Source: Parietichytrium sp. I65-24A
Lineage: Eukaryota > Sar > Bigyra > Thraustochytrida > Thraustochytriidae
Assembly (NCBI GenBank): GCA_012862575.1
Contig: BLSF01000019.1
Span: forward strand, 248,001 to 312,000
DNA length: 64,000 nucleotides
Direction of reading: 5' to 3'
The notes under the pieces were generated by a model that ran no database searches, was not told where the DNA came from, and was given only the letters and a program-made list of their open reading frames with translations. The position numbers and the translations under genes are program-made. Positions 48,330-52,118 of the stretch are shown here, one piece after another; position 1 is the first letter of the stretch, and each line of letters starts with the position of its first letter.

Positions 48330-51300
48330 ATGCGCGAGCGCGGGGAGGTGTGCGCGGCGCGGCTGGCGCGACAACACGACGGCTCGGAAGGTGTCCGCGC
48401 GACCGCGCCCAATGCGCCGAGCGTGCAAAGGGTCCAAAGGGTCCGCGGGGACCGTCTGCTGGATGCGGTGGCGCTGGAAGCCATGCACGCGGGTGGCGCA
48501 GTGTCGGCGCTGGAAGCCGTGGCCGCGCTCCCCGCCCACGTGCGAGCCCTCCTCCCGCCGAGCCGCGCTCTGCGCGCGGAGGTAGAGCGCGCAGGGCGGC
48601 AGAGCGGGCTGCTGATCGTGCAGCACTTGGTTGTTCACGCGCGTACCGCGCGGCGCGAGCGCGGACACGGTACAGCGGACGCTGCTCTGCAGCGCGACGT
48701 GGAGCTCGCCATCGCAAGGGACTTTGGCGTACGCACTGTGCAACGGACGAAGGTGGTTGAGAAAGTGGTGGCGGAGCTGGTGAAGGCGGGAGGCGTGCTG
48801 CCGTCGCTGAATGTGGCAAACAAGCTGACGGAGGAAGACCGCGCGGGGCTGACGGGGAACAAGCCGGTGAGGGCGGTGGTGGCGGCTGCCGGCGGGGAGC
48901 TACTGTGCGTGGAGCACTTGCTCGTGCACGCGCCAACGGTGCGCGAGAAAGGGGCAGCGGTAAAGCTGGCGCCGGCGCTGCAGAATAACGGAGAACTGGC
49001 ACAGGCGGTGATCAACGCAGTGAAGGCGGCGGCACCCTCCGCCGCCCGTGTCGCCGCGGCCGCCGAAGGTGAGAGGTTTGTGGGTGTTTTGATCAGGCTG
49101 AATAGTTACAATTGGCTGATAGAGCTTGCGCAGGACACCCCGGCCTTTCCGGCAAAAACGGTTTTCGCGGCACAGGCGTTGCTAAGACACTTTGAGTCCA
49201 CGAATTATGCCAAGGTAGGCGACTTGGTGGAGTTTACTGTCCTGCCTTCGAGCACTGCTGAAAACGCCTCCACACGCTGGGCTACGGACGTGACGCTTAT
49301 CAAATCACAGCGCTCGAGCGTGACGGGCCTTTCTGCCCAAGATTGGAAGAGTCTTATGGTCGCAGTGATTCAAATCGTAAAGGGTGCTTACGGGGCCATT
49401 CCCTCATCTACATTGCTGGATCGACTGAGCCCAGAGTTGAGATCTTTGCTTCCTCCGGTGAAACCGATTAAATCTCTTGCGGCTCATTCAAACGGCAAAC
49501 TTATCTGCGTCAAGCATATGATCGTTCATGTAGGACGATTTCAAAACTCTCTGAGGCGCAATATTGACCTCTTCAATGGCAATAAGGAGCTTGAGAATGC
49601 TGTACTGGAAGCAATTCGAGTTGCCGCTGCACCTTCACCTTCCAAGCTGTTTGGAACGCTGTGTACTATCACAGCAACAGGCAAATGCTTCATTCGAGAA
49701 GATTCGCAGCCAGAGGACTGCCCGCGAACTGAGTTATATTTCGTTGGTGCCAACGCCACGCACTTTTTCGAAGCGCATTTGGCAAAGGTAGGCGACCGAG
49801 TAAGTTTTGAGCATGCCGCTAATATACCTCGCAACCCAAACCCCGTTGCTACAAACGTAGTCATTCACCACCAGCCTCATCTACCCCCGTCGTCATCTAC
49901 CATGGGCTTGGATCAGGGAGTGGTGCCGCAAGAGGGGTCCAGCAAGAGAAGTGAGCTGGTGTCTACGATCATACAATTGGCCAAGGAAGCGGATGGAATG
50001 CTCGTATCTGGGTCAGTGTACTCCATGCTTTCGCCAAGCCTGCAGGTCCAGCTTCCGTCCGTTAAACCGATGAAAACCGTTGCAGACGCCTCCGGTGGCG
50101 AGCTTGTTTGCGTGCAGCATCTCATAGTTCACATACCGACAACAACTCGGACGCTGGCGAACAGCGGCGGTCTTGCGTACTTAAAAGAAAAGCTGGGTAG
50201 AGATAACCTTGCACTGATTTTCCGCGAAATCAAGAAAAGCGACCAGCTCTCATCACAGCCCTTGCAAGGGACTATTTGGCATATAAAACGGGGCAAATGC
50301 CTGATCAAGGAGGACTCACAGCCGGAAAATTGTCCTGAGACGGAGTTGTACTATTCGTCGATGAAGTCGACGCATTTCGTAGGGGGAGATCGAGCAAAAG
50401 TTGGAGATCGTGTAGAGTTTAGATTTGCCCCGAATGTGCCTCGGAGCCCGAATCCCGTCGCAACCGAGGTGGTCCTGCAAGGTTTACAAGAAAAGAATGT
50501 AGGGTCCTCAGCAGTACCAATGGCGGTCACATCGGCTGTTATTGAGTTAGTAAAATCAGCGGGTGGTGTCATCCCGTCAGGGTCTGTGCCTCCACTACTC
50601 GCTCCCGAGTTACGATCGATGCTTCCTGCGATGAAGCCCATGAAAGCGGTTGCAAGCTGTTCAAACGGGGAACTCGTCTGCGTTAGGCATCTCATGGTTC
50701 ATGTTGGAACGTTTCCAGTGGCAGCCGCCGGTCATAGCGTTGGCGAATCAGAAATTATCGCCAGCATATACGGCAGTGGCGGCGTTTCTGACCAAGTGTC
50801 TGAAACGTCGCAGGGTGTTTCCCAAAGCGGACGACGAAGGCTGATGGGTACTGTTTGTATTGTGAATGGCAAAAAGTGCTTCATTCGGGAAGACTCGCAG
50901 GCTGAAGACTGTCCAACGGTGGAACTTTACTTCGCGACCATGTCGAAGAACTTTGTTAATTCAGTCTTCCCAAGGGTTGGGGATCGCGTGGAATTTGAAC
51001 ATTTGGACTTCTTGCAAAACTCACCAAATCCTCATGCAACAAATATCGTGATTTGCAATCATCCTTCGAATCATTCGGCGGCGTCTCTTGCCCCTTTCGA
51101 GACGCTTCGCGTGCCTGACAACGTTGTATCTGCTGTTATCGACTTGGTTCGTTCGGCTGGAGGCATGATGCCATCTGGTGTAGTCATTCACAACCTTGCC
51201 CCAGATCTTAGGAACGAGGTTCCGGATTGGAAACCGGTCAAGTCCATCGTGAGCAGCTCAGATGGACAGCTTTTCTGTGTACAGCATTTGATACTACATC

Positions 51301-52118
51301 GTGACGAAATAGCTCGACGTTCCAAAAACGACGTGCATGTGTTGTGCAGAATTCTAGAGGGTCGACTTGATCTTGCAGAGGAAATTATGGTTATGTTGAG
51401 CGAAGACGGCGATGTAAAGGAAAATGAGAATGCGTGTAAAAGGGCGAGTGCAGACACGTTGCAAGATCCCCTGGGAGTTGCTTCTGATGATGGTGACGGA
51501 CCTTTTACATCATCGGCACTCGATCCGGTTATTCTTGAGGTCGTAGAAATCGTCAGGTCAGCAGGAGGAGCACTGCCCTCCAGGTGTGTTCCTACTCAGC
51601 TCACAGCTAGCTCGCGTGCTCTCTTGCCCCAGGAAAACCCTATGGAATTTATCGCAAACGAGTCGCAGGGTGAACTCTTATGTGTAGAGTATCTCCTCGT
51701 TCACCCAGTAACGTTCTTGTCAAAGCTTGGGCAGAGTCGAATGGATCTGCCGCAAGATGGTATTGTAGCGAATATTATGGCAGCGATAGAAAATTCCAAC
51801 ATGGAAAGGCTTCACGGCACTCTCTCCATGATATACGGCGGAAGGTGTTTCATCAGAGAAGACTCACAACCACAAGATTGTGATCAGAGAGATATGTATT
51901 ACGTTCCGGCTGAATCGAGTCAATTTCGCGATTCGGATATCGCCAAGGTCGGCGATCGGGTGGAGTTTGAACATGCAAGCCACATTCCGCGGAACCCGAA
52001 CCCTGTTGCGATGAATGTTGTTCTCGTAAAAGATGCGATGTCAATGTCATCATCTGCATCTACTGCGTCAAGTAATTCCTTCCGAAGTCGTTATACAAAC
52101 AATACATTTGCGCATTAA
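48330..52118 (+). CDS. Large protein of two interspersed module types (7 A modules, 5 B modules); family not recognised
   Basis: The protein has 1262 residues, single exon; the ATG at 48330 is the first in the frame. Module A (about 60 residues) follows a pattern like VIxLVKSAGGxIPSGSV.. LxPELRSxLPxxKPxKxV..SxGELxCVxHLxVH. Copies lie at about 41-103, 143-201, 343-402, 544-603, 733-793, 932-991 and 1067-1126. Module B (about 75 residues) follows GTxxxIxxGKCFIREDSQPEDCP..ELYF and AKVGDRVEFEHA..IPRNPNPVATNVV. Copies lie at about 248-326 (divergent), 440-516, 645-719, 838-913 and 1160-1236. The order is A A B A B A B A B A A B. B looks like an OB/cold-shock-type fold (GxCFIREDS; VGDRVEF), and A like a small winged-helix or LOTUS-like fold; both are inference from pattern only. 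If right, it would bind RNA or DNA. There is no signal peptide, TM segment or known catalytic motif. The N-terminal 230 residues are very GC-rich and Ala/Arg/Val-rich. Confidence 0.85.
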   Translation: MRERGEVCAARLARQHDGSEGVRATAPNAPSVQRVQRVRGDRLLDAVALEAMHAGGAVSALEAVAALPAHVRALLPPSRALRAEVERAGRQSGLLIVQHLVVHARTARRERGHGTADAALQRDVELAIARDFGVRTVQRTKVVEKVVAELVKAGGVLPSLNVANKLTEEDRAGLTGNKPVRAVVAAAGGELLCVEHLLVHAPTVREKGAAVKLAPALQNNGELAQAVINAVKAAAPSAARVAAAAEGERFVGVLIRLNSYNWLIELAQDTPAFPAKTVFAAQALLRHFESTNYAKVGDLVEFTVLPSSTAENASTRWATDVTLIKSQRSSVTGLSAQDWKSLMVAVIQIVKGAYGAIPSSTLLDRLSPELRSLLPPVKPIKSLAAHSNGKLICVKHMIVHVGRFQNSLRRNIDLFNGNKELENAVLEAIRVAAAPSPSKLFGTLCTITATGKCFIREDSQPEDCPRTELYFVGANATHFFEAHLAKVGDRVSFEHAANIPRNPNPVATNVVIHHQPHLPPSSSTMGLDQGVVPQEGSSKRSELVSTIIQLAKEADGMLVSGSVYSMLSPSLQVQLPSVKPMKTVADASGGELVCVQHLIVHIPTTTRTLANSGGLAYLKEKLGRDNLALIFREIKKSDQLSSQPLQGTIWHIKRGKCLIKEDSQPENCPETELYYSSMKSTHFVGGDRAKVGDRVEFRFAPNVPRSPNPVATEVVLQGLQEKNVGSSAVPMAVTSAVIELVKSAGGVIPSGSVPPLLAPELRSMLPAMKPMKAVASCSNGELVCVRHLMVHVGTFPVAAAGHSVGESEIIASIYGSGGVSDQVSETSQGVSQSGRRRLMGTVCIVNGKKCFIREDSQAEDCPTVELYFATMSKNFVNSVFPRVGDRVEFEHLDFLQNSPNPHATNIVICNHPSNHSAASLAPFETLRVPDNVVSAVIDLVRSAGGMMPSGVVIHNLAPDLRNEVPDWKPVKSIVSSSDGQLFCVQHLILHRDEIARRSKNDVHVLCRILEGRLDLAEEIMVMLSEDGDVKENENACKRASADTLQDPLGVASDDGDGPFTSSALDPVILEVVEIVRSAGGALPSRCVPTQLTASSRALLPQENPMEFIANESQGELLCVEYLLVHPVTFLSKLGQSRMDLPQDGIVANIMAAIENSNMERLHGTLSMIYGGRCFIREDSQPQDCDQRDMYYVPAESSQFRDSDIAKVGDRVEFEHASHIPRNPNPVAMNVVLVKDAMSMSSSASTASSNSFRSRYTNNTFAH

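Follow-up and report, generated by a model that had tools for sequence, protein, structure and literature searches.

The closest described counterparts of the protein analyzed here are the LOTUS/OST-HTH proteins, Egalitarian and Unr/CSDE1. LOTUS/OST-HTH proteins (MARF1, TDRD5/7) contain a small winged helix in several copies, which has an extra helix or insert ahead of its recognition helix, and LOTUS domains dock Vasa. DNA binding is also known for winged helices. Egalitarian carries repeated winged helices joined by linkers, i.e. three LOTUS-like Egl domains followed by an exonuclease domain, and these winged helices insert helix 2 in the minor grooves of RNA (excerpt of PMC13186709). In Unr, canonical and non-canonical cold-shock domains (CSDs) alternate; in the non-canonical ones, strands 1 and 2 are connected by a long loop (excerpt of PMC7383231). 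Fusions of OST-HTH/LOTUS domains to OB folds of S1/cold-shock type were reported in 2010 (excerpt of PMC2848206).

The present analysis concerns one open reading frame of the window (the whole stretch of 64,000 nucleotides that was analyzed). Its putative start codon is the ATG at 48330; a GTG is also in frame at 48210 and an in-frame stop is found upstream at 48159. No other gene was matched when the 42.5 Mb genome was searched, and the gene was found in a single copy. The initial annotation had recognized seven modules of type A and five of type B in the 1262 residues, in the order A A B A B A B A B A A B, and this array was confirmed (Table 1). When each module was scored with the profile of the remaining copies, every one of the 12 outscored all of its 2000 shuffles (maxima: at most 11.2 bits for A, at most 14.3 for B and 11.2 for B1), with 67.5–90.5 bits for A2–A7 and 85.8–109.0 bits for B2–B5. 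In a scan of the whole protein with profiles built without A1 and B1, the best stretch in B1 reached only 11.0 bits and, therefore, B1 is the weakest call. A pair of A modules devoid of any intervening B had been assigned to A5–A6; besides A1–A2, this pair is actually A6–A7. The B profile scored −2.1 and −2.3 bits on the A1–A2 and A6–A7 linkers and thus detected no B module in them. The linkers that follow A modules have a summed similarity of 418, reached by one of 500 shuffles (using the first 45 residues of the A6 linker). The net charges of the modules range from −4 to +6, without trend.

Table 1. Features of the array gene (positions in the window).
Feature	Position	Residues	Strand	Remark
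Open reading frame	48330..52118	1262 aa	+	Counted from ATG, then stop; no internal stop
Module A1	48450..48647	41-106	+	26.8 bits left out; most divergent A
Module A2	48747..48938	140-203	+	Leave-one-out profile
Module B1	49071..49304	248-325	+	18.0 bits left out; core motif lost
Module A3	49350..49538	341-403	+	With extension, query of the winged-helix model
Module B2	49644..49874	439-515	+	Query of the cold-shock-like model
Module A4	49950..50141	541-604	+	Leave-one-out profile
Module B3	50256..50483	643-718	+	Leave-one-out profile
Module A5	50523..50711	732-794	+	Leave-one-out profile
Module B4	50835..51062	836-911	+	Leave-one-out profile
Module A6	51120..51308	931-993	+	Leave-one-out profile
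Linker A6-A7	51309..51524	72 residues	+	Net charge -8; B module not detected
Module A7	51525..51713	1066-1128	+	Leave-one-out profile
Module B5	51804..52034	1159-1235	+	Leave-one-out profile

The core of the A modules, initially described as invariant, is not: it reads SGLLIVQHLVVH in A1 and GKLICV in A3, its first H is replaced by Y in A7, and only six columns (A, G, L, L, V, H) are the same in all copies. The B core GKCFIREDSQPEDCP is present in B2–B5, where it is approximate rather than invariant, and its reported loss in B1 was found again. The most conserved stretch of B includes the acidic-Cys loop. Zinc binding by the A stretch C-V-x-H-x-x-x-H was considered and dropped, since the C is missing in A1 and the first H in A7. 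Comparison of the copies with one another within A2–A7 and B2–B5 (A1 and B1 being left out) gave pS values of 0.68–0.93 and pN values of 0.27–0.51, so that the view of an old repeat under selection holds for these copies. Since synonymous sites are near saturation and protein sites are not, the array is old, coding and constrained.

As initially reported, the protein belongs to no recognized family: no Pfam or NCBIfam model reached its own cut-off on the whole protein, and single modules gave weak matches. The matches below cut-off, i.e. Cys_rich_VLP (20.7 of 27 bits), RsgA_N (17.6 of 27 bits), TraI_N (6.9 of 26.4 bits) and B_ant_repeat (14.2 of 24 bits), were attributed to chance, as was the single match of the whole protein to PDB sequences (E 1.2). 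PF12872 (LOTUS/OST-HTH) was found in none of the seven A modules and PF00313 (cold-shock) in none of the five B modules at E ≤ 10 in Pfam. TarS_linker (E 0.062) and DUF7940 (E 0.063) each match one of the seven A modules weakly; the same is true of EcpB_C (E 0.038) and CSDE1 (E 0.1) for one of the five B modules each. For the same genome, the Pfam search lists no OST-HTH, and a PF00313 search matched four places, none of them inside the array gene. Family libraries thus give nothing above cut-off; fold prediction gives two well-known folds.

For the B module, the AlphaFold model was obtained for one copy, B2, with five paralogous rows as input alignment; it has five strands, a pLDDT of 81.4 and a pTM of 0.71 (weakest of five models: pLDDT 66.1). 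Foldseek matched it to CspA (E 2.6e-4), with four Unr entries among the best 27 rows. The head of the VIA-align ranking consists of 28 CSD chains (Z 9.2–8.0), with Unr CSD456 at Z 9.2 (70 aligned residues, 2.3 Å) and CspA at Z 9.1 (67 aligned, 2.3 Å). B2 is therefore predicted to be a five-stranded barrel of CSD type, the fold of PF00313. The B2 model agrees with the initial proposal of a cold-shock/OB strand pattern into which an acidic-Cys loop is inserted: the long loop (residues 24–35) lies between strands 2 and 3, and the loop between strands 1 and 2 comprises residues 14–18. The long loop is thus placed elsewhere than in the non-canonical CSDs of Unr and, furthermore, RNP residues are partly kept, so that B2 differs from this type on both counts.

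Comparison of profiles lends weak support to the cold-shock assignment. The B2–B5 profile (B1 was excluded from the global cold-shock test, from the global and local S1 tests and from the second run of the cross-controls described below) was aligned with 84 cold-shock domains, i.e. 80 loci plus four of the six domains from the same genome (U2 and U4, of irregular length, were omitted). The global score is 17.5 over 67 columns; two runs of 100 shuffles each stayed below it, their highest scores being 8.5 and 10.7, in contrast to a score of 3.1 for the same profile with S1 domains (17 of 30 loci, the 13 others having an incomplete stretch). The HHalign probability for cold-shock domains is low (9–12%); when B1 is kept, four of 200 shuffles reach the score in local mode, with a probability of 2.6%. 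Because IF1 barrels are near in VIA-align (Z 7.7) and the local score with the S1 profile (19.2) was reached by only one of 100 shuffles, the OB family of B is less sure than the barrel itself. Searched against PDB, the B profile gave three matches, Unr being first (E 0.089, no single stretch passing by itself) and third (E 1.5), and a neurotoxin chain second (E 0.28).

The RNA-binding motifs of cold-shock domains are [YF]-G-F-I for RNP1 and [YF]-[YF]-H for RNP2 (excerpt of PMC7825780). At the RNP1 site, B2–B5 read KCFI, KCLI, KCFI and RCFI and B1 reads NWLI; at the RNP2 site, they read YFV, YYS, YFA and YYV, and FAA in B1. These sites were placed by the U1 and U3 alignment rows, the Csp and W33 rows being shifted by two residues at RNP1. 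Neither motif is complete in any copy: RNP1 lacks its [YF]-G half and RNP2 its H; the F-I of RNP1 is kept in three of the five copies and the two RNP2 aromatics in four of the five.

The A model was also built for one copy, A3 with its extension, from seven paralogous rows (pLDDT 89.8, pTM 0.79; weakest of five models: pLDDT 68.3). The order of its elements is H-E-H-H-H-E-E, followed by three helices, which corresponds to a predicted winged helix with a helical extension and includes the winged helix-turn-helix of LOTUS/OST-HTH. In Foldseek, Egalitarian-BicD-RNA complexes occupy rows 1–3 and five more of the best 27 rows; the best E value is 0.17 (probability 0.84), 9rvy_C has a probability of 0.91 at E 0.37, and the top Egalitarian rows have query-normalized TM-scores of 0.42–0.49, with all E values >0.1. 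In VIA-align, ranks 1–8 are all Egalitarian (Z 7.2–7.4; for 9rvy_C, 66 aligned residues within 10–82, rmsd 2.5 Å) and the LOTUS domain of Tejas is near (Z 6.9, 62 aligned, 2.3 Å). Winged helices that do not bind RNA are within 1 Z unit of the top matches, several DNA-binding ones are within 1–2 Z units of the top match, and cullin WHB domains match at Z 6.3 and below. Of the winged-helix/LOTUS-like character previously attributed to A, the winged helix is therefore retained, with Egalitarian as best match and Tejas close to it, but LOTUS is not singled out, given the ties within 1 Z unit, the Foldseek E values and the profile comparison described below. Where LOTUS/OST-HTH has its extra helix or insert, the A3 model has a four-residue helix (30–33) and a loop (34–40).

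The local score of A with a LOTUS profile (49 of 51 loci; L115 and L129 were omitted as too short) was reached by six of 200, three of 100 and four of 100 shuffles; the global score is what chance would give, 39 and 34 of 100 shuffles reaching it, and the HHalign probabilities are 0.9% and 0.0%. Cross-controls gave no score above chance. For A with cold-shock domains, 115 of 200 shuffles reached the score, as did 72 and 97 of 100 in a second run; for B with LOTUS, the corresponding numbers are 198 of 200, then 88 and 40 of 100. The two matches of the A profile to PDB sequences (E 1.3 and 5.3) were considered as chance, and no match of the A model to a viral fold library was found at E ≤ 0.001.

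Since the folds of A and B resemble those of an RNA-localizing winged helix and of a cold-shock domain, the protein is, on balance, probably a soluble multivalent scaffold that would bind RNA at multiple points through winged-helix and cold-shock-type modules. The odds of this reading stand despite the low HHalign probability for B, because they are carried by the fold evidence. The incomplete RNP motifs of B, the net charges of the modules, the tied winged-helix matches of A and its chance-level global score with LOTUS speak against it. RNA as ligand, the division of labor between modules and the role of scaffold are suggested by analogy with like-folded proteins. The protein would be made up of some five composite units, each with a winged helix (A), a short helical extension and a cold-shock-type barrel (B) in this order; A1 and A6 have no B and lie outside these units. 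The A modules would probably touch structured or double-stranded RNA, like Egalitarian domains or, alternatively, could dock a partner protein as LOTUS docks Vasa. For the B modules, weak binding of single-stranded RNA by the F-I and Y-[FY] residues that are left is probable; alternatively, these modules may mainly fix the spacing and orientation of the A modules. Their conserved acidic-Cys loop may be a contact surface. That the alternation is a code, A reading helical stretches and B the single strands between them, is unlikely; with such an RNA structure ruler, one polypeptide would measure a specific succession of paired and unpaired segments over a long RNA.

A rather unlikely alternative is a protein-protein scaffold in which A and B are pseudo-RNA-binding domains, A docking partners, as LOTUS does with Vasa or as cullin WHB domains do, and B being a spacer comparable to the non-canonical CSDs of Unr. 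Half of each RNP motif is gone in B, the acidic-Cys loop belongs to its most conserved stretch, cullin WHB domains are among the matches of A, and the non-canonical CSDs of Unr alone do not bind RNA (excerpt of PMC7383231). However, the RNP1 and RNP2 residues that B keeps seem to be more than a spacer needs, and the best matches of A are RNA-bound Egalitarian domains. Less likely again is a DNA-binding or chromatin protein, in which the array might cover an extended site on DNA: DNA-binding winged helices are close to the top match of A and cold-shock domains bind both DNA and RNA (excerpt of PMC7825780), but the score of A with a MarR profile (27 of 30 loci, three having an incomplete stretch) does not stand out clearly from chance (reached by 17 and nine of 100 shuffles), and RNA-regulatory proteins are the top match of A and several top matches of B. 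A chance or decaying repeat without folded product is very improbable: A1 and B1 are strongly diverged and no orthologue was found in the viral contigs or prokaryote genomes searched, but there are 1262 open codons, synonymous sites are near saturation while protein sites are conserved, and the models, one copy per module kind, are fairly confident.

Compared with Egalitarian, the array protein, here read as an RNA-binding scaffold, has seven winged helices instead of three, with B modules interspersed, and no exonuclease domain was found by Pfam. Likewise, the Pfam scan revealed none of the NYN, RRM or Tudor domains of LOTUS/OST-HTH proteins. The array is comparable to the alternating binding and non-binding domains of Unr, with a predicted cold-shock fold, weak profile similarity and partly lost RNP motifs in B; however, the partner of B is a winged helix here and another cold-shock domain in Unr. 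Neither the B alignment nor the whole protein gave a confirmed relative in viral contigs, nor did the B alignment in prokaryote genomes, and no further member of the A/B pair was found in the same genome. The initial claim of novelty may hold for the alternating array, none being recognized among the papers listed in the literature searches, but not for the combination of domains, considering the fusions known since 2010. If so, this would be an independent regular array in which winged helices and cold-shock barrels alternate, and it would show how far both folds can depart from their family models in an array of twelve modules that remains constrained. Besides the array gene, the same genome has a separate multi-CSD, Unr-like gene (L016).

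The order of modules proposed by the initial annotation, A A B A B A B A B A A B, was reproduced by the coordinates of the 12 modules of the array protein. All of them outscored the best of 2000 shuffles of themselves when each was omitted from the profile of its own type: 26.8 bits for A1 and 67.5-90.5 for the remaining A modules (best shuffle at most 11.2), 18.0 bits for B1 and 85.8-109.0 for the remaining B modules (best shuffle at most 14.3). The twelve modules are real repeats. Scans of the whole protein found seven places with the A2-A7 profile and five with the B2-B5 profile, the best stretch of B1 reaching only 11.0 bits. 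The linkers of A1-A2 and A6-A7 do not score as B modules with the B profile. Besides A1-A2, the pair devoid of an intervening B is A6-A7 and not, as annotated, A5-A6. Among A2-A7 and B2-B5 (A1 and B1 being left out), synonymous differences (pS 0.68-0.93) compared to protein-changing ones (pN 0.27-0.51) indicate old, coding and constrained duplications, so that the proposed age and selection of the repeat are upheld for these copies. The mean hydropathy over 19 residues does not exceed 1.45 anywhere in the protein; this lack of strongly hydrophobic segments would fit a soluble product. GC3 is 0.79 in the first 247 codons, which contain A2 and the most divergent A module, A1, versus 0.54 and 0.47 later in the frame. 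On visual inspection, the frames around the gene look eukaryotic.

Positions of the array gene and of other features of the window and of the same genome
Sequence	Positions	Strand	Feature
Window	48330-52118	+	Array reading frame, 1262 codons then stop
Window	48159	+	Upstream in-frame stop
Window	48330-49070	+	First 247 codons of the array frame
Window	35763-37361		Transporter-like frame
Window	39266-40801		Transporter-like frame, similar to the preceding one
Window	about 47720-47771		Encodes REAYEKEVELGKVAKA then stop, similar to the C-terminus of the 39266-40801 frame
Window	47970-48060		Degenerate simple repeat, CATGTT type, upstream of the array gene
Window	41882-43642	-	Frame whose N-terminal part has four Cys-rich repeats, CFxTGCxxGGCP type
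L016 (G000:C8:485500-493500)	1480-2715 and 2645-6883		Overlapping frames with two PF00313 matches
L017 (G000:C44:12500-17500)	2220-4799	-	WD40-repeat protein, cold-shock domain in the C-terminal third

Module B is best read as a relative of cold-shock domains, on the basis of both its fold matches and its profile scores against cold-shock and S1 domains. The model of B2, built from the five copies, has five strands (mean pLDDT 81.4, pTM 0.71; weak spot at residues 41-50, block value 54). With Foldseek, CspA (E 2.6e-4) was the sole row at E <= 0.001, and the following rows include CRHSP-24, IF1, Unr domains and S1 folds. VIA-align gave Z 9.2 for Unr CSD456 and 9.1 for CspA, with Z >= 8 in 32 of 997 chains and a first IF1 row at 7.7. 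The global score of B2-B5 against 84 cold-shock domains (17.5 over 67 columns) was reached by 0/100 shuffles in each of two runs, compared to 20/100 for the one against 17 S1 domains (3.1); the local S1 score (19.2) was reached by just 1/100. HHalign gave the cold-shock comparison a probability of only 9-12%, and 4/200 shuffles matched the local cold-shock score of a profile that included B1. In B2-B5, RNP1 has the form [KR]-C-[FL]-I, and RNP2 is Y-[FY]-x with no H. The B2 model bears out the annotated cold-shock/OB pattern with an inserted acidic-Cys loop. This long conserved loop lies between strands 2 and 3, whereas PMC7383231 places that of the non-canonical Unr domains between strands 1 and 2.

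For module A, annotated as a small winged-helix/LOTUS-like unit, the model of an extended A3 built from the seven paralogous copies (mean pLDDT 89.8, pTM 0.79) predicts a helix, a strand, a helix, a short helix, a helix, two strands and then three helices. A Foldseek search of the PDB gave no match at E <= 0.001; rows 1-3 were Egalitarian chains (best E 0.17, probability 0.84), row 6 was 9rvy_C, also Egalitarian (probability 0.91), and the query-normalised TM-scores of these Egalitarian rows were 0.42-0.49. The top eight VIA-align matches, all Egalitarian, cover residues 10-82 at Z 7.2-7.4 (65-67 aligned, rmsd 2.2-2.5 A). Next come ZAP at Z 7.0, with an rmsd as poor as 5.4 A, then the LOTUS domain of Tejas (6.9), a tRNA 2'-phosphotransferase (6.8) and further winged helices from 6.6 downwards. 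Since these matches tie within one Z unit and Z < 8 may reflect a common arrangement, the winged helix is well supported by the model and the LOTUS type is likely, not proven. Sequence profiles gave HHalign probabilities below 1% against 49 LOTUS domains from prokaryote genomes, with local scores reached by 6/200, 3/100 and 4/100 shuffles and global ones by 39/100 and 34/100; scores against MarR were reached by 17/100 and 9/100. The stretch following A shows weak similarity among copies (summed score reached by 1/500 shuffles) and is helical in the model, with lower confidence (block means 75-87 from residue 71 onward).

In the genome carrying the window (42.5 Mb in 172 contigs), the whole protein matched one place, A5 six and B2 four, all inside the array frame. 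Within these searches, no second gene with the A/B pair turned up. The most divergent copies, A1 and B1, were missed by the module searches, so that these could also overlook remote relatives at other places of the genome. The matches listed for this genome include no OST-HTH family match, which does not prove its absence. Viral contigs (queried with the B alignment and the whole protein) and prokaryote genomes (B alignment) yielded no confirmed relatives. Cold-shock domains also occur at the loci L016 and L017 of the genome. The frames of L016, where further cold-shock-like domains are visible by eye, belong to an Unr/CSDE1-like gene, apparently split by an intron or a frame change. The WD40-repeat protein of L017 resembles WDR33.

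In 2010, PMC2848206 already described eukaryotic fusions of OST-HTH to S1/cold-shock-type OB folds, as well as giant proteins with OST-HTH domains in one stramenopile. Among the papers listed for LOTUS, cold-shock, winged-helix and Egalitarian domains, none was found to describe a regular winged-helix/cold-shock alternation; within these papers, the regular alternation is apparently new. Helix 2 of Egalitarian domains enters RNA minor grooves, two domains lying side by side (PMC13186709), LOTUS domains reportedly recruit Vasa (PMC5458760) and are cited as binding G-rich RNA, and RNA-binding cold-shock domains of Unr alternate with spacer ones (PMC7383231). By analogy, the array protein would probably be a multivalent scaffold for RNA, in which A and B modules would divide the work. 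B may be mostly spacer. The net charges of the modules are mixed.

Just upstream of the array gene, the short stretch that encodes nearly the C-terminus of the second transporter-like frame is perhaps the remnant of a third copy.
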